Assembly: GCA_903842365.1 (NCBI GenBank)
Contig: CAIMLU010000004.1
Span: 1-44,830 of the forward strand
From: an uncultured bacterium
GTDB lineage: Bacteria > Patescibacteriota > Minisyncoccia > Phycocordibacterales > UBA6065
DNA length: 44,830 bases
Direction: 5' to 3'
Shown: positions 4,284 through 44,027 of the stretch, in pieces
Layout of the letters: every line of letters begins with the position of its first letter
Numbering within the stretch: position 1 is the stretch's first letter
The notes under the pieces: generated by a model
Databases searched by the model: none
Seen by the model: the letters and a program-made list of their open reading frames with translations, nothing else
What the model was told of the DNA's origin: nothing
Made by a program: the position numbers and the translations under genes

Positions 4284-5801
4284 ATGGGATTCTCAAAAGT
4301 CCGCAGCGCACAGATTTCGATGCTCGATGCTCATATCATCGATGTTGAAACCGACACCGCTCGCGGACTTTTTGCATTCTCGATTGTTGGTCTTCCTGAT
4401 AAGGCAGTAGAAGAATCACGTGATCGCGTCTCTGCGGCACTCAAAAATTCTGGATTTGAATCACCGAAATCATCTAACAAAAAAATAATAGTATCACTTG
4501 CACCAGCGCATGTGAAAAAAGAAGGCTCAGCTTTTGATGTAGCAATCGCCCTCGGTTATTTGCTTGCAGAAGAAATTATTACCTGTGACCCGGAAGGAAA
4601 ATTGTTTCTTGGTGAGCTATCCCTTGATGGAAAAGTCCGACCGATACGCGGAGTGCTTCCACTCGTCGCAAAAGCAAAAGCTTTGGGTTTCAAAGAAGCC
4701 TATGTGCCAAAAGAAAATGCAGATGAGGCGGCAATAGTGGAAGGCATAACCATCTATTCAATAGACGCACTTACTGACATAACAAATCATCTCGAGAGGA
4801 AAAAACATCTTGAGAAACACGTACGCGCAAATGCTCATTCAAAAATTGACCACGATGCTGATGTTGGAGACATCGCAGGAAACGAACATGCGAAACGTGC
4901 AATCACCATAGCGGCGGCAGGTGGTCATAATATTCTTCTTTATGGGCCACCTGGAACAGGTAAAACAATGCTCGCCCGTGCCCTTGCGTCAATCCTCCCA
5001 CCATTCTCATTCGACGAAATGCTTGAGGTAACAGGTATACACTCAATCGCAGGCACCCTTATAAAAAACACGGTAGACACGCCACAAATCAGGTCACCGC
5101 ACCACACGTCTTCATATGTTGCACTTGTTGGAGGGGGAACAACACCACGGCCAGGGGAAGCAACACTTGCTCACCGAGGAGTACTCTTTCTTGATGAATT
5201 TCCTGAATTCGACCGTAAGGTTATTGAGGCTCTCAGAGAACCTCTTGAGGAAGGGTTTGTAACAATTTCACGCGCAAAAGGCACAGCAAAATTTCCAGCA
5301 CGATTTATGCTCGTTGCGGCAATGAACCCATGTCCATGTGGTAATTTTGGAATAAGTGGTAAAAAATGTGTGTGTTCACCACTTTCAATTGAACGGTATA
5401 AAAAGAAAATATCAGGGCCAATTATTGATCGTATTGATATGTTTATCGAAGTTTCAAAAGTATCGCACGGTGCTGTCATCGACCACAGACGAACAGAAGG
5501 TGAAAGTGACACACTACGCAAAATAGTGACCGAAGCACGAAACAGCGCATTGAAACGAAACGGTAAACCAAACCGAGATATATCCACAAAAGAAATTGCA
5601 GCACAAACACATTTAACAAATTCAGCAAAACAAATTCTCGAGTTATCCGCACAGAAACTCGACCTATCAGCACGGGCATGTCATAGAATTATGCGACTTG
5701 CTCGCACAATCGCTGATATGGAATCAGTCAACGATGTTTCAGATAAACATATTCTCGAAGCACTTCAATACCGACCAAAACACGATTTCCTTTCCATGTA
5801 A
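4284..5801 (+). CDS. comM: YifB/ComM family Mg-chelatase-like AAA ATPase
   Basis: 505 aa, GPPGTGKTMLARALASILPP Walker A, N-terminal ChlI-like domain, C-terminal Mg_chelatase_C. Confidence 0.93.
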   Translation: MGFSKVRSAQISMLDAHIIDVETDTARGLFAFSIVGLPDKAVEESRDRVSAALKNSGFESPKSSNKKIIVSLAPAHVKKEGSAFDVAIALGYLLAEEIITCDPEGKLFLGELSLDGKVRPIRGVLPLVAKAKALGFKEAYVPKENADEAAIVEGITIYSIDALTDITNHLERKKHLEKHVRANAHSKIDHDADVGDIAGNEHAKRAITIAAAGGHNILLYGPPGTGKTMLARALASILPPFSFDEMLEVTGIHSIAGTLIKNTVDTPQIRSPHHTSSYVALVGGGTTPRPGEATLAHRGVLFLDEFPEFDRKVIEALREPLEEGFVTISRAKGTAKFPARFMLVAAMNPCPCGNFGISGKKCVCSPLSIERYKKKISGPIIDRIDMFIEVSKVSHGAVIDHRRTEGESDTLRKIVTEARNSALKRNGKPNRDISTKEIAAQTHLTNSAKQILELSAQKLDLSARACHRIMRLARTIADMESVNDVSDKHILEALQYRPKHDFLSM

Positions 5802-13406: not shown

Positions 13407-15908
13407 ATGACCATGAAGGATGTTTTTAACAAATCAATTGCCGGTGCGCTTGTAGTTGCATTCATCGTGCCAGCGAGTTTCGCCTTCATGCCTAAAAAAG
13501 CGGAAGCTCAGCAGGGAAAAATAAGTGCTTGTGTTGCAGGTTTACTTACAGCAATAGGTGTATCAACGCCAGCATTCCTAAAAGACACCGTAGGGGTCTC
13601 CACAGGACACGGAGGTTCTGTTGTTGATGCAACAGACACTGGAAATTCAGGCGGAATTTCTTTCAACTCCTGTATCCTTCAACCCCTTGCAAAAATAATG
13701 ATTATTACACTCATCCGCCAGATCGGAGCGAGTGTTGTTGATTGGGTTAACAATGGTTTTGAAGGCAAACCGTCCTTTGTCACTGATTTTGAAGGAACCT
13801 TGCGCGATGCTGCTGATAATGCCCTCGGTGAATTTATCGAAGGATCAGAATTAGGTTGGCTCTGTTCAAATTTTTCATTCCAAATCCGCATCGCCCTTGC
13901 GATGAAATATAGCAAACCATGGAAAAGAAAGGCTCAGTGTACCCTTACAAAAATCAATCAAAATATTGATAATTTTGTTCAAAATAACGGAGGTGCTGGT
14001 TGGGATAACTGGTTAGAAGTGACCTCGGAACCTCAAAATAACTGGATCGGCGCTTATTATATGGCCGACTCAGAACTTGCAGCCAGGATGATGAAAGCAA
14101 CGGACATCAAAGAAAAACGCATCACCATGGGCGCGGGTTTTCTTGATTTTGAAACGTGTGACGATTGGGAAACAGACACAGAGGCAATGAACCGCGCATA
14201 TGGTACTCAGGGAGGAACATCTAACACAGTAAACACTAATACGTTTGGTACTCAGGGAGGAACATTTAACACAGTAAACACTAATACGTTTGGTACTCAG
14301 GGAGGAACATCTAACGCAGCAAACACTAATACATTCAATCTTGAACCAGCTTTTGCCCCCGCTGATTTAAGAACAAACGATGAGGTTTTAAATACTAAAT
14401 TTGAGACAACATTACTACCATCATCAAAACCAAAGTGTAAGAAATCATCGACAAAGACCCCAGGAACCATCATCGCAGGAAAATTGAATAGCACCTTTAT
14501 GCAAGGCGATATTCAAGCCGCAGTAGCGCAGGAAATTGATGACGTCATTGCTGCAACCCTGAACCAAATCGCAAAAAAAATGATGACAGGAGCAATGGGG
14601 CTTCTTGGCCTCTCAAAAAAGAAAGGTGGGTCAAATGTAAACTATGGTAAAAAATATGAAGCATTGTATTGGGGAGGACAAACACCCACATCAACAGAGG
14701 CTGCCGATACTGGCGCACAATCAGAAATGGATGCATACCGAAATGAAACGAGTGATTTCAATGCTACCCAGAACTTAATAAACACAAATTCTGACACCGT
14801 TAAAATCAACCAGTATACAGACCAAAAAGCACAAGAAGCGTACAACCAACAACAAGAACAGCTCAACAACATAACAGACCAGTTCACTGGCGTCGTCGAT
14901 GCATCAGAACGAAATGTTGCCCTTGGCAAGACAGCGACACAATCAACAACAGATGCTTCTGCAATGAACGCGGTAAACGGGATCACCACCGAAGGGTCAA
15001 ACACAGTATCAAAACCAGCATCAACCCACCAAGTCACAGCAGACGAAGCTCTTTATAGTGGAAACGCTGGTGACATTCGTCCATGGTGGCAAGTTGACCT
15101 TGGAAGAGTAGAGAAAATAAAAGAGGTTCGTATATACCCAGCTCAAAATAAGCCCGTAAACGTAACACTCGAGACATTTACCATCACTCTTTCAAACAAC
15201 CCAACTGATGCCTCGGCAAGCCCTACTTGGACAAGTGACGTCATTACAGGAACCGCAAACTATCCAATCAAAATTGCAATCCCAGCAACGGGCGCGTGGA
15301 GGTATGCCCGTATAACGAAAAACGCAAAAAAGGACACGTCATGCTACAACAACCCAGCATCATATCAATCTGCCGCATGTTATCACGCACTTGAATTGGC
15401 AGAGGTAGAGGTTATTGTTCCACTTGAAACCACAAACCTATTCCCAGGAACAGCCTCAACAAGTACAAGCTCTGGCACAAACACCGTAAATGGTGATTCA
15501 GGGAAACTTGTGTGGACCACAAATCAAAACAATATCCAGATTTCAAAAGGTAACCTAGTGTCGTTCAACCAAACACTTTCTGGGGCAAATAAATCAAACC
15601 TTACCATTACCACAACGCTCTACGAAGGAACAAAAAATATCACCTTTGGATCGCTTTTTAGCGTCCTAACAGTAGGGTGGGGCAATGGATCAACAGAGCG
15701 AAACTCAATGACGTTTGATAGCACAATGACCCACGGTGCACTCAAATTAACCAATGTATCAACAACAAACGCATCGCAATTTTTCCTCAAATACAACGGC
15801 CTTACCAAAACCTCTACAAAATCAGGAACATACCGAATGGAAGCGATTGTTACCGATGGGGCGGGGAATAACCTTGGCACACTCTCGACACAGTTTGTGA
15901 TACAATAA
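13407..15908 (+). CDS. large secreted protein with tandem repeats and an F5/8 type C (discoidin/fucolectin-like) domain
   Basis: 833 aa; NVALGKTATQSTTDASAMNAVNGI...PWWQVDLGRVEKIKEVRIYP matches the F5/8C pattern; N-terminal hydrophobic segments; upstream of a VirB6-like gene. Confidence 0.8.
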   Translation: MTMKDVFNKSIAGALVVAFIVPASFAFMPKKAEAQQGKISACVAGLLTAIGVSTPAFLKDTVGVSTGHGGSVVDATDTGNSGGISFNSCILQPLAKIMIITLIRQIGASVVDWVNNGFEGKPSFVTDFEGTLRDAADNALGEFIEGSELGWLCSNFSFQIRIALAMKYSKPWKRKAQCTLTKINQNIDNFVQNNGGAGWDNWLEVTSEPQNNWIGAYYMADSELAARMMKATDIKEKRITMGAGFLDFETCDDWETDTEAMNRAYGTQGGTSNTVNTNTFGTQGGTFNTVNTNTFGTQGGTSNAANTNTFNLEPAFAPADLRTNDEVLNTKFETTLLPSSKPKCKKSSTKTPGTIIAGKLNSTFMQGDIQAAVAQEIDDVIAATLNQIAKKMMTGAMGLLGLSKKKGGSNVNYGKKYEALYWGGQTPTSTEAADTGAQSEMDAYRNETSDFNATQNLINTNSDTVKINQYTDQKAQEAYNQQQEQLNNITDQFTGVVDASERNVALGKTATQSTTDASAMNAVNGITTEGSNTVSKPASTHQVTADEALYSGNAGDIRPWWQVDLGRVEKIKEVRIYPAQNKPVNVTLETFTITLSNNPTDASASPTWTSDVITGTANYPIKIAIPATGAWRYARITKNAKKDTSCYNNPASYQSAACYHALELAEVEVIVPLETTNLFPGTASTSTSSGTNTVNGDSGKLVWTTNQNNIQISKGNLVSFNQTLSGANKSNLTITTTLYEGTKNITFGSLFSVLTVGWGNGSTERNSMTFDSTMTHGALKLTNVSTTNASQFFLKYNGLTKTSTKSGTYRMEAIVTDGAGNNLGTLSTQFVIQ
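14202..14336 (+). repeat. 3 x 45-bp in-frame tandem repeat
   Basis: GGTACTCAGGGAGGAACATCTAACACAGTAAACACTAATACGTTT at 14202, 14247, 14292; encodes GTQGGTSNTVNTNTF. Confidence 0.97.
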
Positions 15909-37205: not shown

Positions 37206-37330
37206 TAATCTGACGGGTGACCTAATTCTTCTGAGTGAAGCTGTTGGTGATTGAAAGCGTTCCTGTTGTGCGAGGTTTCTTTGGGCGAATCTTATATATG
37301 TTGTCTGGGTGATGTTAAACCAAGTTTGGT

Positions 37331-39058
37331 CTATTCAGTTTCAAGGTCGACAACTCGACCAAGTTCATCAAGCGATGTTAAACCCTTTAAAACTTTAAGA
37401 ATTCCATCTTCACGAAGAGTTGGAATACCTTGGTGTTTTGTTGCCGCCCGTACTTCTCGTTCCGATGGATTTTTAATAAGGACATCTTCAAGTGTTTGGT
37501 CTGCAAGTATCGCCTCATAAATACCAATACGGCCCTTGTATCCAAGACCGTTACATATAAGGCAGCCTTTTGCACGGAATATTTTTTTTGAGTTTACACC
37601 TTCAATAAGTGTTTTATCAAAAATGGTATTAAGTGAGTCTTCAATAATTTTTCTCTCCTCATCAGTTGGAGTGTCTTCTGTTTTACAGCTTGAACAAAGT
37701 GTTCGAACAAGACGTTGTGCGAGTGCGATGTTTAATGCTGAGATGAGTGTTTTAGGACTGATACCAAGGTCGATTAATCGTGGAAATGTACCTGCGGCTG
37801 AATTTGTGTGGAGTGTTGAAAACACAAGGTGACCCGTGAGAGCTGCGTTCACTGCCGTTTCTGCTGTCTCGGAATCGCGGATTTCACCAACCATAATAAC
37901 ATCAGGGTCTTGACGGAGTGCTGCGCGGAGCCCAAGTGCGAACGTGTATCCTTTGTCTGCATTTGTTTGGGTTTGAGTAATTCCTTTTAAGTGATACTCA
38001 ATTGGGTCTTCGATAGTGAGAACTTTTACACCTGGATCATACACTTTACTCAAGAAAGCATAGAGTGTTGTTGTTTTTCCAGATCCAGTTGGCCCAGTGG
38101 TGAGGAGTAATCCTTTTGGTCGCCCTATTTCATGGGTAAGTATTCCTAGGAGTTTTTCGGGAATACCCATCGCTTCTAAAGGAACCTGGATAGACTTTGG
38201 ATTGAGGATTCGCATAACAATTGATTCGTTGTATGCACCAGGGAGGAGGGAGGTTCGGATCTCGATTTCTTCACTATCTAATTTAATACTAAAACGGCCG
38301 TCTTGAGCCTCGGATTTAACATTTAACTTTAGACCAGAAAGGAGTTTTATGCGCGAGAGCACGAGTGGATATGTTTCTACATCAAGACCTATAATATCTG
38401 TTAAAACACCATCAAGACGATATCGTAATCGTGTTGATGTTTCTTCAGGTTCGATGTGTATGTCTGATGCCTTGGTTGCAAGTGCTCCACCAAGAATGAT
38501 CTCGAGTATTTTTGAAATACGAAGACCTTTCTTCATTTTTAAAATATCACTCACGATTCGCTTAACATCTTCGGTCGAGTGAATTTCACTTAAGAATGTC
38601 TTGATTTCCTCACTTGATATTTCAAGGGCCCCAGCCTTACTTTGTTCTGAATGAGAAAGGTCTGCATAGCGGACCCATGCTTTCTCAAGGCTATTCTGAG
38701 AGACAACAACCTGGGTTACTTCGTAATTTTGGTTTTCAAGTGATGTAAGAATCTCACCCAGTTTTGGGTGGTTAGGGGAGAGTACTCCTACTTTAATTTT
38801 TTTTCCAATAAGTGAAAAACCAACGACTCTTGTTTCGCGGGCAATGTGTTCAGGAATAACACGCAAAGCATCCATGTTTATAGGAATGGGGCCAAGGTCT
38901 GCGTATTCAAGACCATTTCTTCCTGCAACAATTTGGGCAAGATCCTCCTCCTCTTTTTTCTTGAATTCCTCAAGTTGTTTTATCTGCTTTTCCTCATCAA
39001 ATATAACTGTCATGGCGTCTATTGTATCGTGTTTGGGTTGGTAAACGATGCTTGACAA
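37331..39058 (-). CDS. pilB: type IV pilus assembly / type II secretion ATPase (PilB/GspE)
   Basis: LLTTGPTGSGKTTTLYAFLSKVY, LTIEDPIEYHLKGITQTQ, LRQDPDVIMVGEIRDSETAETA, CSSC...CLIC zinc motif. Confidence 0.95.
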   Translation of the reverse strand: MSSIVYQPKHDTIDAMTVIFDEEKQIKQLEEFKKKEEEDLAQIVAGRNGLEYADLGPIPINMDALRVIPEHIARETRVVGFSLIGKKIKVGVLSPNHPKLGEILTSLENQNYEVTQVVVSQNSLEKAWVRYADLSHSEQSKAGALEISSEEIKTFLSEIHSTEDVKRIVSDILKMKKGLRISKILEIILGGALATKASDIHIEPEETSTRLRYRLDGVLTDIIGLDVETYPLVLSRIKLLSGLKLNVKSEAQDGRFSIKLDSEEIEIRTSLLPGAYNESIVMRILNPKSIQVPLEAMGIPEKLLGILTHEIGRPKGLLLTTGPTGSGKTTTLYAFLSKVYDPGVKVLTIEDPIEYHLKGITQTQTNADKGYTFALGLRAALRQDPDVIMVGEIRDSETAETAVNAALTGHLVFSTLHTNSAAGTFPRLIDLGISPKTLISALNIALAQRLVRTLCSSCKTEDTPTDEERKIIEDSLNTIFDKTLIEGVNSKKIFRAKGCLICNGLGYKGRIGIYEAILADQTLEDVLIKNPSEREVRAATKHQGIPTLREDGILKVLKGLTSLDELGRVVDLETE

Positions 39059-39638: not shown

Positions 39639-39669
39639 GAGGCTATTTTAACGAGTAGCCTCTTTTTTA
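39639..39669 (+). terminator. intrinsic terminator
   Basis: GAGGCTA / TAGCCTC followed by TTTTTT. Confidence 0.85.
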
Positions 39670-39718
39670 TTCTGACCAGCGAGGAGTGTGGGCGAGCATC
39701 CTCGCACACAACGTCAGA

Positions 39719-39776
39719 GCGACCAAAATCTCTTGAGCAAAGCGATTAGAGATTGGAAGTACTCTTGTGGTGCGAC
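39719..39776. repeat. hairpin repeat element, copy 1
   Basis: gcgaccaaaatctcttgagcaaagcgattagagattggaagtactcttgtggtgcgac; near copy at 43946-44003. Confidence 0.85.
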
Positions 39777-39852
39777 GTCAGAACAAATTGGTTTGTTCTT
39801 CGAATTCCACAAGCGTCAGCCCAAGGTGGTTTATTGCCTATATTTATGGATA

Positions 39853-40293
39853 ATGGGGGATATGTTTATACGCTCAATTGGAGAGTTAAAAGATTTTGCC
39901 AAAGAGATAGTTGATTCACTTAAGGCAAATGAGAGGGCAACTATTATTGCCCTTGATGGAGATTTAGGTTCTGGAAAGACGACTTTTTCAAAGTGTATTG
40001 CAGCCCTTTTGGGGGTTAAGAATCAAGTACAAAGCCCCACTTTTGTTATTATGAAATCCTATAACATAGAAGACGATAAGCGTTTTAATAACCTTATCCA
40101 TATTGATGCGTATCGTTTTGATGATCCTAAAGAGGCAGACCAAATACGATGGAATGAACTTGTTTTGGAACCAAGAAACCTTGTGTTGGTGGAGTGGCCC
40201 GAGAAATTAGGTGACAGACTTCCAATTGGAACTATGCGTATTTGTTTCTCCTTTGTCGATGAGACAACCCGTGAGATTTCCGTAGTAGAATAG
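39853..40293 (+). CDS. tsaE: tRNA threonylcarbamoyladenosine biosynthesis ATPase TsaE
   Basis: ATIIALDGDLGSGKTTFSKCIAALLG, SPTFVIMKSY, HIDAYRFDDP, LVEWPEKLGDRLP; start 39853 or 39862. Confidence 0.9.
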   Translation: MGDMFIRSIGELKDFAKEIVDSLKANERATIIALDGDLGSGKTTFSKCIAALLGVKNQVQSPTFVIMKSYNIEDDKRFNNLIHIDAYRFDDPKEADQIRWNELVLEPRNLVLVEWPEKLGDRLPIGTMRICFSFVDETTREISVVE

Positions 40294-40297
40294 GGTT

Positions 40298-42682
40298 ATG
40301 AAAAAAAAGAGCAGGGAACGACTTGTCATTCTTGATACACACGCAATTCTTCATCGTGCGTACCACGCTGTGCCTGACTTTGTCACGTCGACAGGGGTTC
40401 CCACAGGCGCTTTGTTTGGACTTGTGTCGATGGTGCTTTCTATAGTTGAAACACTTAAACCTGATTACGTTGTTGCTGCTTTTGATTTACCAAAACCAAC
40501 ACATAGACATGAGGCATATAAAGAATACAAAGCAGGACGTTTGAAGACTGACGGTGCTCTTGTTGAACAGATAAAACGAGCGCGAGATGTGCTGGGAGCC
40601 CTATCGATCCCAACATATGACCGTGAAGGATTTGAGGCTGATGATATTTTGGGGACTATTGTTGAAAATGAAAAAAATAACAGTGATTTAGAAATTATTA
40701 TTGCAACAGGTGACGCGGATGCATTTCAACTTGTCTCAGGTAATAAGGTGCAAGTCTTTACCATGAGAAAAGGTGTAAAGGATGTTGTTTTATATGATGA
40801 AGCGGCCGTTGTTGAGCGTTATGGTTTTATTCCAACCCTCCTTCCTGATTACAAAGGCCTCCGTGGTGACCCTTCTGATAACATTATTGGTATTAAAGGC
40901 ATTGGTGAAAAAACAGCAACAATCCTCATAAAAGAGTTTGGAACTATTGAATCAATGTATGAAGCGCTTAAAAAAAGTGAGGAGCGTTTCAAGACGGCTG
41001 GTATTACGCCCCGTGTTATAGGTTTGTTACGTGACGGTGAAGAAGAGGCTCTCTTTTCAAAAACACTGGCAACAATTCGTCGTGATGCACCTATTGAATG
41101 GTCTCTTCCTGAAAAGAGGTGGGTTGAAACAATTTCGGTTGATGAGGCTGGTGCACTTTTTATGCAACTTGAATTTCGTGCAATGAAGTCACGGCTTGAA
41201 AGTGCTTTAAAAAAGGTGTCAGGGGGTAGTGTGATTACCGCTTTTGCGGTTGAGCCCGCAAAAACAGTGAATGAAATTTCCGAGCAGGAACTTAAAGAAC
41301 TTTGTGTTGCTTTATGGGTATTTGATTCAAATATTACAAACCCCAACACCGAAGATATTCTTTCGTTTGCAAACACAAAAACACTTAGAGAAGCACAGCC
41401 ACTTGTACTGGAAGCTCTCACGAGGAGAAATGCCGTACGTATATTTGAGGATATTGAAAAACCTCTTATCCCTGTTGTTTCTGCAATGGAAAAACACGGT
41501 GTACTGATCGATAAAACATTTTTACAAGAGCTTGGTGTTACATATCGTGCTGAACTTGAAAAACTAGAAAAATCTATTTATATCCATGCTGGGTGTGAAT
41601 TCAATGTTGCGTCGCCAAAACAGCTCGGTGAAGTTTTGTTTTCCAAAATGGGTCTCAAGGTTGCTCGGCAGAAAAAAACCGCAGGAGGAGCCCTTTCAAC
41701 AAAAGAGTCAGAGCTTGAAAAAATGCGCGACCTCCATCCAATTATTGGAGAAATTTTACAGTTTCGTGAGTTGGCAAAATTATTGGGTACGTACATCGAG
41801 GCAATACCACCGCTTCTTGATGGGGGAGACCGACTCCATGCTCGATTTATTCAAACGGGTACGGTCACGGGTCGAATGGCGTCAGAAAATCCAAACCTTC
41901 AAAATATTCCAAATAAAACAAACCTTGGTCGTGCAATACGAAAAGCTTTTATTGCACCTAAAGGACGAGTGCTCCTTTCTCTCGATTATTCACAGATTGA
42001 ATTACGAATTGCCGCCTTCTTGTCCAAGGATCCATCGTTTATAGAAATTTTTACAAGTGGGCAAGATGTTCACACTGCTGTTGCGGCAAAAGTGTTTAAT
42101 GTCTCCATTGATGATGTTACAAAAGAAATGCGTTCAAGGGCGAAGGTTATAAATTTTGGCATCTTGTATGGTATGGGGACCCTTGCACTCAAACAGAATT
42201 TAAATTCCTCTCGCGAAGAAGCGCAAACATTCATGGACGAGTATTTTGCACGCTTTCCTGAGCTTGCAGGGTATCTCAATAGAACAAAAGAAGAGGCGGG
42301 GAGGCTTGGTTACACTGAAACGTATTTTGGACGCCGTCGTTATTTTGAGGGACTCAAATCACACCTTTCGTTTGTAAAAGCAACTGCGGAACGTATGGCC
42401 ATAAACGCACCAATACAAGGGACGTGTGCTGATATGGTTAAAATAGCCATGCGTCGTATTAATGAGTGTATCCAGGAACGTTTTACACACAAAGCTGACC
42501 TAGTGCTCCAGGTGCATGATGAATTGGTGTATGAAGTTGATAAAGATATATCAGTTGAGTGTTCATGTGCCTTTAAATCAATTATGGAATCAGTTATACC
42601 TGCAAAAGACATTTCGGGTATTGTTTGTGTCGCAGAAGCGCGAGTTGGTACGAGTTGGGAGGATATGGAAAAGGTGAAATAA
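40298..42682 (+). CDS. polA: DNA polymerase I
   Basis: 5' nuclease domain (LVILDTHAILHRAYHAVP, DYKGLRGDPSDNIIGIKGIGEKTA), polymerase motifs (LLSLDYSQIELRIAAFLSKD, RRYFEGL, QVHDELVYEV). Confidence 0.96.
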   Translation: MKKKSRERLVILDTHAILHRAYHAVPDFVTSTGVPTGALFGLVSMVLSIVETLKPDYVVAAFDLPKPTHRHEAYKEYKAGRLKTDGALVEQIKRARDVLGALSIPTYDREGFEADDILGTIVENEKNNSDLEIIIATGDADAFQLVSGNKVQVFTMRKGVKDVVLYDEAAVVERYGFIPTLLPDYKGLRGDPSDNIIGIKGIGEKTATILIKEFGTIESMYEALKKSEERFKTAGITPRVIGLLRDGEEEALFSKTLATIRRDAPIEWSLPEKRWVETISVDEAGALFMQLEFRAMKSRLESALKKVSGGSVITAFAVEPAKTVNEISEQELKELCVALWVFDSNITNPNTEDILSFANTKTLREAQPLVLEALTRRNAVRIFEDIEKPLIPVVSAMEKHGVLIDKTFLQELGVTYRAELEKLEKSIYIHAGCEFNVASPKQLGEVLFSKMGLKVARQKKTAGGALSTKESELEKMRDLHPIIGEILQFRELAKLLGTYIEAIPPLLDGGDRLHARFIQTGTVTGRMASENPNLQNIPNKTNLGRAIRKAFIAPKGRVLLSLDYSQIELRIAAFLSKDPSFIEIFTSGQDVHTAVAAKVFNVSIDDVTKEMRSRAKVINFGILYGMGTLALKQNLNSSREEAQTFMDEYFARFPELAGYLNRTKEEAGRLGYTETYFGRRRYFEGLKSHLSFVKATAERMAINAPIQGTCADMVKIAMRRINECIQERFTHKADLVLQVHDELVYEVDKDISVECSCAFKSIMESVIPAKDISGIVCVAEARVGTSWEDMEKVK

Positions 42683-42689
42683 TACACAT

Positions 42690-43421
42690 ATGTTTTTTCT
42701 TGTTACTGGAACAGATACAGATAAGGCCCGTGCAAAAGCGCGTGAACTCATTTCGCTCATGGAAAAAAAGCGCCCTGACGCAACGTCAATCCGTGTTCTT
42801 GCTGACACAGCAACAATGAGTATGGTGGATGAATTGGTATTATCTCAAGGCTTATTTGAAGCCAAGACGATCACTTTTTTTGATGAGGTGTTTGAAAATG
42901 AAGACGTTGGAGCACGGGTGATTGCTGTTGTTGATGCGCTTAAATTGTCACAAAACGGTTTTGTTCTTTTCGAAGAAAAACTTTCAAAGAAAAATCTCGA
43001 GATATTGTCGGGTTCTGCAGAGAAAGTGTTTCATTTTGATTCAACAGAACCATCAAGTGATTATTCAATGTTTCCAATCGCTGACGCTTTTGGTTCGTGT
43101 GACAAACGTTCCTTATGGCTCCTTATTCGTGAGGCACTCGATCACGGTTCACCAGCAGAAGAAATTCACGGGATCATGTGGTGGCAGGTGAAGGCAATTG
43201 CAATAGTTCGTATTGCAAAAGATGCTAAATCAGCGGGGCTTGCACCTTTTGTTTTTACAAAAGCAAAACGCTTTAGCATGGCTTTTTCATCAGAACAAAT
43301 TGAAAAAATCATGTGTGATTTGGTCGCCATATACCACAAGGCTCATAGGGGAGAGATTGATTTCAATGTTGCGCTTGAACGCTTTGCTCTCGATTTTCCA
43401 GTGTCACATGTTGAAAAGTAA
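42690..43421 (+). CDS. holA: DNA polymerase III delta subunit-like protein
   Basis: MFFLVTGTDTDKARAKARELIS..., ELVLSQGLFEAKTITFFDEVFEN, C-terminal helical domain. Confidence 0.75.
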   Translation: MFFLVTGTDTDKARAKARELISLMEKKRPDATSIRVLADTATMSMVDELVLSQGLFEAKTITFFDEVFENEDVGARVIAVVDALKLSQNGFVLFEEKLSKKNLEILSGSAEKVFHFDSTEPSSDYSMFPIADAFGSCDKRSLWLLIREALDHGSPAEEIHGIMWWQVKAIAIVRIAKDAKSAGLAPFVFTKAKRFSMAFSSEQIEKIMCDLVAIYHKAHRGEIDFNVALERFALDFPVSHVEK

Positions 43422-43439
43422 TTAAAACGCTGATAGTAT
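43411..43439 (+). promoter_or_regulatory. promoter upstream of tRNA-Lys
   Basis: TTGAAA(43411-43416)-N17-TAGTAT(43434-43439). Confidence 0.45.
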
Positions 43440-43465
43440 GCCACATACGCACTCAAAACCTCTTT

Positions 43466-43500
43466 GGGTAGAGCGTCTCCCTTTTAAAGGGTGGGTCTGG
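43466..43500 (+). pseudogene. partial tRNA-Lys duplicate (D-stem to variable region)
   Basis: GGGTAGAGCGTCTCCCTTTTAAAGGGTGGGTCTGG resembles TGGTAGAGCATCTCCCTTTTAAGGAGTGGGTCGTTGG of the intact tRNA 55 bp downstream. Confidence 0.7.
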
Positions 43501-43521
43501 AATAGTTACATATAAACACAT

Positions 43522-43594
43522 GCGCCCTTAGCTCAGTTGGTAGAGCATCTCCCTTTTAAGGAGTGGGTCGTTGGTTCGATTCCAACAGGGCGCA
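43522..43594 (+). tRNA. tRNA-Lys(UUU)
   Basis: acceptor GCGCCCT/AGGGCGC, D-arm AGCTCAGTTGGTAGAGC, anticodon loop CTTTTAA, T-arm GTTGGTTCGATTCCAAC; CCA not encoded. Confidence 0.96.
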
Positions 43595-43605
43595 CAAACG
43601 CGATC

Positions 43606-43640
43606 CAAGAAAACCTGCACTGCTGCAGGTTTTTGCGTTT
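43606..43640 (+). terminator. tRNA terminator hairpin
   Basis: AAACCTGCA CTGC TGCAGGTTTTT. Confidence 0.7.
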
Positions 43641-43641
43641 G

Positions 43642-44027
43642 TGCGAACCGGAGCGATGTTTGTTCAGTAGAACAAACCGCGAGGTAGGGCCGAGGAAATT
43701 CTGGTTCGACAGAACCAGAATTATCCGTGGCCACAAATCATATGGTGGTTTTCGGTTGTGCTGTGCGAGCCGGAGGCCGACGGGCCGAGGCGGGTGAGTT
43801 CGGGATAAGGGACCCGAACGTAAAACCTTCTTGAGACGGTACTCCGTCCAAAAGGTGTACTGACCATGTAATGGTCGCGAGATTTTTCAGCAGAAAAATA
43901 CTTGTGACCACATCCATGCGAGCCAGGGCCGAGGAATTTTCGAGCGCGACCAAAATTTCTTGAGCGATAGCGATTAGAAATTGGAAGTACTCCTGTGGTG
44001 GCGGCGAGAAAATATCCGTGGCCACAA
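43642..44027. repeat. intergenic hairpin mosaic / repeat region
   Basis: at least six perfect hairpins; GGGCCGAGG at 43687, 43782, 43926; 16-bp repeat TATCCGTGGCCACAAA at 43722 and 44013. Confidence 0.8.
43946..44003. repeat. hairpin repeat element, copy 2
   Basis: gcgaccaaaatttcttgagcgatagcgattagaaattggaagtactcctgtggtggcg. Confidence 0.85.

Follow-up and report, generated by a model that had tools for sequence, protein, structure and literature searches.

Data from the window, by which we mean the whole 44,830-nt stretch of contig CAIMLU010000004.1, and from its relatives showed a short repeat of two hairpins, here named E1, whose recurrence is far beyond chance. Mobility is probably the cause of the observed pattern, and E1 would then be a very small, non-autonomous and structure-constrained mobile element of one order of Patescibacteria. 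The original prediction had proposed two copies of a single hairpin element of ~57 bp, with a C-G pair exchanged for T-A on both arms, and had taken the exchange as a sign that the fold is maintained. On re-reading of the sequence, both copies, all four stem coordinates and the exchange between copies 1 and 2 were exact. The claim of a maintained fold was right, and about 70 further copies, in which the pairing is kept, support it far better than the original single pair. The unit itself had to be redrawn: it is 53 nt long in copy 1 and 54 nt in copy 2, since the tandem period and the empty sites described below mark its ends, and it contains a second hairpin at 39760–39772 and 43988–44000, respectively.

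Copy 1 (39720–39772, forward strand) is a complete element running from CGACC to GGTG, as delimited by BLASTN, covariance model, tandem copies and empty sites. Its hairpin 1 (39720–39759, forward strand) is supported by covariation and comprises the pair C39720–G39759, CC/GG, the main stem AATCTCT/AGAGATT (39727–39733/39748–39754), which also appears in the RNA minimum free energy (MFE) structure, and an inner GC/GC stem. Hairpin 2 of this copy reads UACU-CUUGU-GGUG, covaries and is likewise predicted by RNA MFE. Copy 2 (43947–44000, forward strand), found by BLASTN and the covariance model, has the loop GATA, a hairpin 1 (43947–43987) with the stem AATTTCT/AGAAATT (43954–43960/43976–43982) that is read from the sequence and from covariation, and a covarying hairpin 2 of UACU-CCUGU-GGUG. 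One of these copies lies in front of tsaE-polA and the other beyond tRNA-Lys. Both had been placed in intergenic DNA after terminators, which holds for copy 1, directly past an intrinsic terminator, but not in the same sense for copy 2, which lies ~300 nt beyond the tRNA-Lys terminator and is nested within another repeat. A GAACAAA/TTTGTTC hairpin noticed at both loci is indeed present at ~39781–39799 and 43659–43676, but it is a separate feature and does not belong to the conserved unit at other copies. A probable degenerate third copy was found at 37215–37273 on the forward strand (model R1, 30.2 bits, E 2.3e-4 for the whole genome; model R2, 25.9 bits); it lies downstream of an ORF on the minus strand (37331–39058), named GspE/PilB-like by eye from its sequence.

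E1 has the layout CGACC, variable hairpin 1, GAAG and hairpin 2 (UACY-CYUGU-GGUR), with a length of 41–60 nt that is mostly 53 or 57. Hairpin 1 accepts nearly any sequence between its fixed flanks, CGAC on the 5′ side and GAAG on the 3′ side, and its inner GC-RAA-GC stem is optional. It is kept only as a shape, and the 2 × 2 internal loop CGAC/GAAG and hairpin 2 are kept in sequence. With the first covariance model, 18 of 60 relatives proved to have divergent copies, and it was reading these that revealed hairpin 2. A closing helix ACC/GGT across the whole unit, contained in model R1, was dropped, as hairpin 2 pairs GGT with UAC and this pairing covaries. Over 67 distinct sequences, pairing was seen in 96.5% of cells, and cells with both partners changed numbered 116, compared with 26.5 ± 4.2 after shuffling and no more than 21 with slid partners; the covariation score was 0.409 against at most 0.066 for slid partners, in an alignment that was fitted to the model and is biased towards the structure, although hairpin 2 was absent from the first model. 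Hairpin 2 also occurs in the variants UACC/GGUA and UCCC-UUUA-GGGA. Hence, the fold is strongly supported by covariation. The folding of single copies is no better than that of their dinucleotide-shuffled counterparts (z −0.5 and −1.0), so that single-copy folding energy is uninformative and the evidence for the fold is comparative. Moreover, hairpin 2 has conserved U-G pairs (UG in 51/67 and 40/67 sequences at two positions), which turn into A-C mismatches on the opposite strand, and therefore the given strand is the constrained one. Such a one-strand constraint fits RNA and equally fits single-stranded DNA.

In the genome of the window, BLASTN found nine copies (E-values down to ~1e-37 for further copies), including a head-to-tail pair with a period of exactly 53 nt, and the covariance model at least 11. 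With the corrected model R2, E1 was found in 104 of the 397 genomes of the order and in 60 of its 179 genera; per-genome counts in this search are lower bounds once near 13. Outside the order, a phylum-wide draw of 380 genomes gave one E1 genome only. An exact 21-base pattern searched in 84,980 species genomes matched Patescibacteria or unclassified MAG contigs, one record being tandem, together with one Myxococcota contig that we regard as a chance match, its flanks not matching. Copy number is unequal among close relatives, with 18 copies in genome G014 and none in its congener G435. Identical copies occur as well: in G001, a member of the window's family, E1 and its flanks are identical to an E1 in Ca. 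Taylorbacteria contig JACRJQ010000003.1, and one 53-mer is identical in two distinct MAG records. No Rfam family matched E1 above its gathering threshold, no match was found in phage and plasmid records, and no description of E1 was found in Rfam or the open-licence literature searched. A partial E1-like copy of 22 bits lies at 5231–5287 of a 7-kb contig filed as viral (IMGVR_UViG_3300047308_000376).

The filled and empty sites of E1 are new here. Host repeat E4 (TTATTGCCAAGCGAGTGAG-GGAGAGAAAAAG...-GGCAACAAAGGGTTTAATACCCTTTAT; loci L139–L146 in G435 and L148, L149 and L154 in G014) is present in at least 11 E1-free copies in G435, which carry one mark between GCGAGTGAG and (c/t)GGAGAG and another between CCCGAGCGAG and CGACGGCAACAAAGGG. 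In G014, three loci have E1 at each of the two marks, and two more have it at the left mark alone. Another genus gave the same picture with host repeat E5, which is empty in G477 (GCGAG followed directly by CGGTGGCTCGC) and filled in G027 (GTCGAG, then 54 nt from CGACC to GGTG, then CGGCGGCTCGC). The third host is E1 itself, as two G014 loci have one unit inside another, between GGAAG and UACC. In all three comparisons the block begins with CGACC, it is joined directly to a preceding GAG or AAG, and no duplication is seen. Tandem units with an exact 53-nt period are found in two genomes, and a third genome has adjacent units that differ in hairpin 1, which simple slippage would not yield. E1 is found nested within older repeats and within other E1 units, and also in tandem.

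GAG precedes E1 at 24 of 72 distinct sites, where 1.2 would be expected, and the trinucleotide before copy 1 (39717–39719, forward strand) is accordingly a putative target. G is found at −3 in 54 and at −1 in 53 of the 72 sites, positions −4 and +4 are at background, and the three bases after E1 favour C-G/A-A, with nothing conserved beyond 3 nt. Gain or loss of E1 involves precisely the block CGACC...GGTG, directly after GAG or, within E1, after AAG, with no duplication of the target; the filled and empty comparisons use repeated hosts instead of single-copy orthologous sites, so that gain and exact loss look alike in them. For one single-copy E1 site in G027, the G477 counterpart is an intergenic stretch too diverged to read.

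E1 is dispersed and extragenic. Thirty-five of 45 clusters avoid ORFs of at least 100 aa, in DNA of which 12% is intergenic, and 13 of the 45 are found no more than 300 nt from a tRNA or tmRNA gene, compared with 6.2 expected at random intergenic spots (p 0.0095). The orientation of E1 to flanking genes is mixed, and a fixed orientation was rejected on this ground. Single-strand transposons often show a replication-strand bias; none was seen for E1, with 27 of 46 copies on the G-rich strand (p 0.30). The flanks of E1 are complementary only weakly above chance (p 0.006–0.09, depending on length), with a few striking exceptions such as locus L037 and copy 2 of the window, and insertion into host hairpins was not retained as a general rule.

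The DNA around the two copies contains further repeats. Copy 2 is enclosed by hairpin repeat E3 (GGCCGAGGA...TATCCGTGGCC), which at 43927–44023 (forward strand) reads GGCC-GA-GGA-ATTTTC ... GAAAAT-ATCC-GT-GGCC around the element, with a predicted flank duplex of −23.6 kcal/mol. The same repeat is found at 43688–43732 (forward strand) with no E1 inside (GGCCGAGGAAATTCTGG...CCAGAATTATCCGTGGCC), and a relative at locus L017 has GGTC/GACC pairs instead. A dispersed two-hairpin module, E2 (CCTTCTTGAGA-hairpin-TCCAAAAGGTGTACT-GACCATGTAATGGTC), lies at 43826–43877 (forward strand) and has matches in 24 of 60 relatives; the region 43820–43900 reads CCTTYTTGAGA, hairpin, TCCAAAAGGTGTACT and a hairpin with a TGTAA loop. 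Near tRNA-Lys, 38 nt at 43460–43497 are 84% identical to part of the tRNA gene 72 nt downstream, and may be a tRNA fragment or remnant. In addition, a composite of ~150 nt is present in three copies (loci L002 and L003, and 39640–39720 of the window), and the start of each coincides exactly with the T-run of an intrinsic terminator (TTTTTTATTCTGACCAGCGAGG), a different one each time. Far from these repeats, three in-register 45-nt tandem repeats at 14201–14335 are probably coding, with 15 codons each.

A link of E1 to a REP-associated transposase had been hinted at in the original prediction, and was not found. Y1_Tnp matches are present in 36 of 60 relatives, many in frames of 220–250 aa, and they occur in 13 of 18 E1 carriers and 23 of 42 non-carriers (Fisher p 0.26). 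Five well-sequenced genomes have E1 and no Y1_Tnp, and the only Y1 match in the window's own genome is a short reading frame interrupted by a stop codon. At 23 of 24 Y1 loci no E1 flanks the transposase gene. The sole other case is 2.4 kb off, in G001, where the only E1 of the genome lies at this distance from its only Y1 transposase gene, an arrangement that may be due to chance. A Y1 HUH transposase that acts in trans on the gene-free E1, or that has since been lost, may nevertheless have moved it. Reverse transcriptase (PF00078) showed no association either (9/18 carriers and 19/42 others) and is absent from the window's genome; a retro-mobile element was rejected for lack of such an association.

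According to our preferred explanation, an enzyme supplied in trans would recognize the folded strand of E1 and join it 3′ of a GAG-like site. A clean, strand-specific and one-sided target free of duplication resembles single-strand transposition, and for this reason an enzyme acting in trans is favoured. As enzymology, single-strand transposition of the IS200/IS605/REP type by a candidate enzyme acting in trans is a tentative choice, made by analogy. More tentatively still, E1 may represent a separate class and rank with the smallest mobile elements of bacteria, with the folded single strand recognized by an undescribed candidate enzyme and joined 3′ of GAG; together with E2–E5 it would build mosaic intergenic DNA, with possible use as an RNA module, as in a thrS leader.

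An alternative, which we consider rather unlikely, is that E1 works as RNA: a module that binds a protein or has a regulatory role, such as in 3′ regions, that spreads by duplication of intergenic blocks and is retained for this function. The conserved U-G pairs that single out one strand, the combination of sequence-conserved joints with free stems, which is typical of RNA motifs, the strong conservation of hairpin 2 and the excess near tRNA and tmRNA genes would all suit such a module, as would the E1 relative within a thrS leader. However, the one-strand constraint suits single-stranded DNA too, the orientation to genes is mixed with no fixed neighbour, the congener G435 lives with no copy at all, and block duplication alone would not be expected to give clean insertions into other repeats and into E1 itself. 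The same leader could also be read the other way, as the source of the element: E1 would be the part of a T-box leader that links Stem I to the antiterminator, set free and then amplified. In genome G000 (contig C25, 3060–3118, minus strand), an ungapped E1-like stretch of 79% identity stands in front of the T-box-like antiterminator sequence AGGTGGAACCGCGG, in a leader that directly precedes a threonyl-tRNA synthetase-like ORF. But this is one case only, in which Rfam finds no T-box and R2 gives 26.7 bits, and entry of E1 into the leader is equally possible. We consider a T-box origin highly improbable.

It is also unlikely that E1 belongs to the REP elements and is mobilized by a RAYT, a Y1 transposase. 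In favour of this are its short extragenic hairpins, its clean insertion with no duplication and the frequency of Y1 matches among relatives. REPs have so far been defined as single palindromes of 20–40 bp (PMC3733652), E1 has neither a GTAG nor a CGTC tag, and the Y1 genes are neither flanked by E1 nor associated with it in presence or absence, as the five E1-positive genomes with no Y1 illustrate. Neutral palindromes with a coincidental common change would account for the poor folding of single copies, but such a chance origin is practically negligible, being refuted by the covariation over 67 distinct sequences and by the concentration of model matches in one order.

Mobility of E1, as we prefer to read these data, can help to understand the intergenic DNA of Patescibacteria, which are seen as streamlined and have intergenic regions built of nested, mobile, structure-constrained modules, of which the searches of Rfam and of the open-licence literature gave no description. 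How coding-free hairpin repeats spread is a question common to REPs and mitochondrial GC clusters. The defined unit, its target and the covariance model make this spread testable in bacteria.

Among known systems, E1 resembles REP, BIME and REPIN sequences in being a short, dispersed, extragenic hairpin with single-strand-specific features, unequal copy number among strains and mosaic arrays. It differs from them in having two hairpins, the first of which is free in sequence, in its ends CGAC and GGTG and joint GAAG, in place of the unpaired GTAG/CGTC tag that the alignments do not contain, and in having no linked or associated RAYT. With MITEs, E1 shares its tiny size, non-autonomy and intergenic location, but its ends bear only CGACC and GGTG; long terminal inverted repeats and target-site duplications are both lacking. 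Hairpins near both ends are shared with elements of the IS200/IS605 family. Like these Y1 HUH elements, E1 is found 3′ of a short fixed sequence with no target duplication (PMC8266576), whereas it measures ~53 nt in all, with no gene inside and no strand bias. TIGR arrays of CPR bacteria are also short, repeated, RNA-like units in Patescibacteria, but E1 has no paired spacers and is mostly dispersed instead of arrayed (PMC12045711).

In kind, and with no claim of common descent, E1 resembles the GC clusters and double-hairpin elements of yeast and Allomyces mitochondria, which are ~40–80 nt long, hairpin-forming and mobile with no known enzyme, and which show tandem merger, shuffling and variation in copy number. 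The comparison with double-hairpin elements is based on what was reportedly described by Paquin et al. in 2000. Yeast GC clusters have short flanking direct repeats and are flanked by AG (PMC4478555), whereas E1 has a one-sided GAG and no duplication. E1 is short, hairpin-forming, probably mobile, intergenic and gene-free, as these mitochondrial elements are, but it resides in a bacterial host and has a conserved GAAG and hairpin 2.
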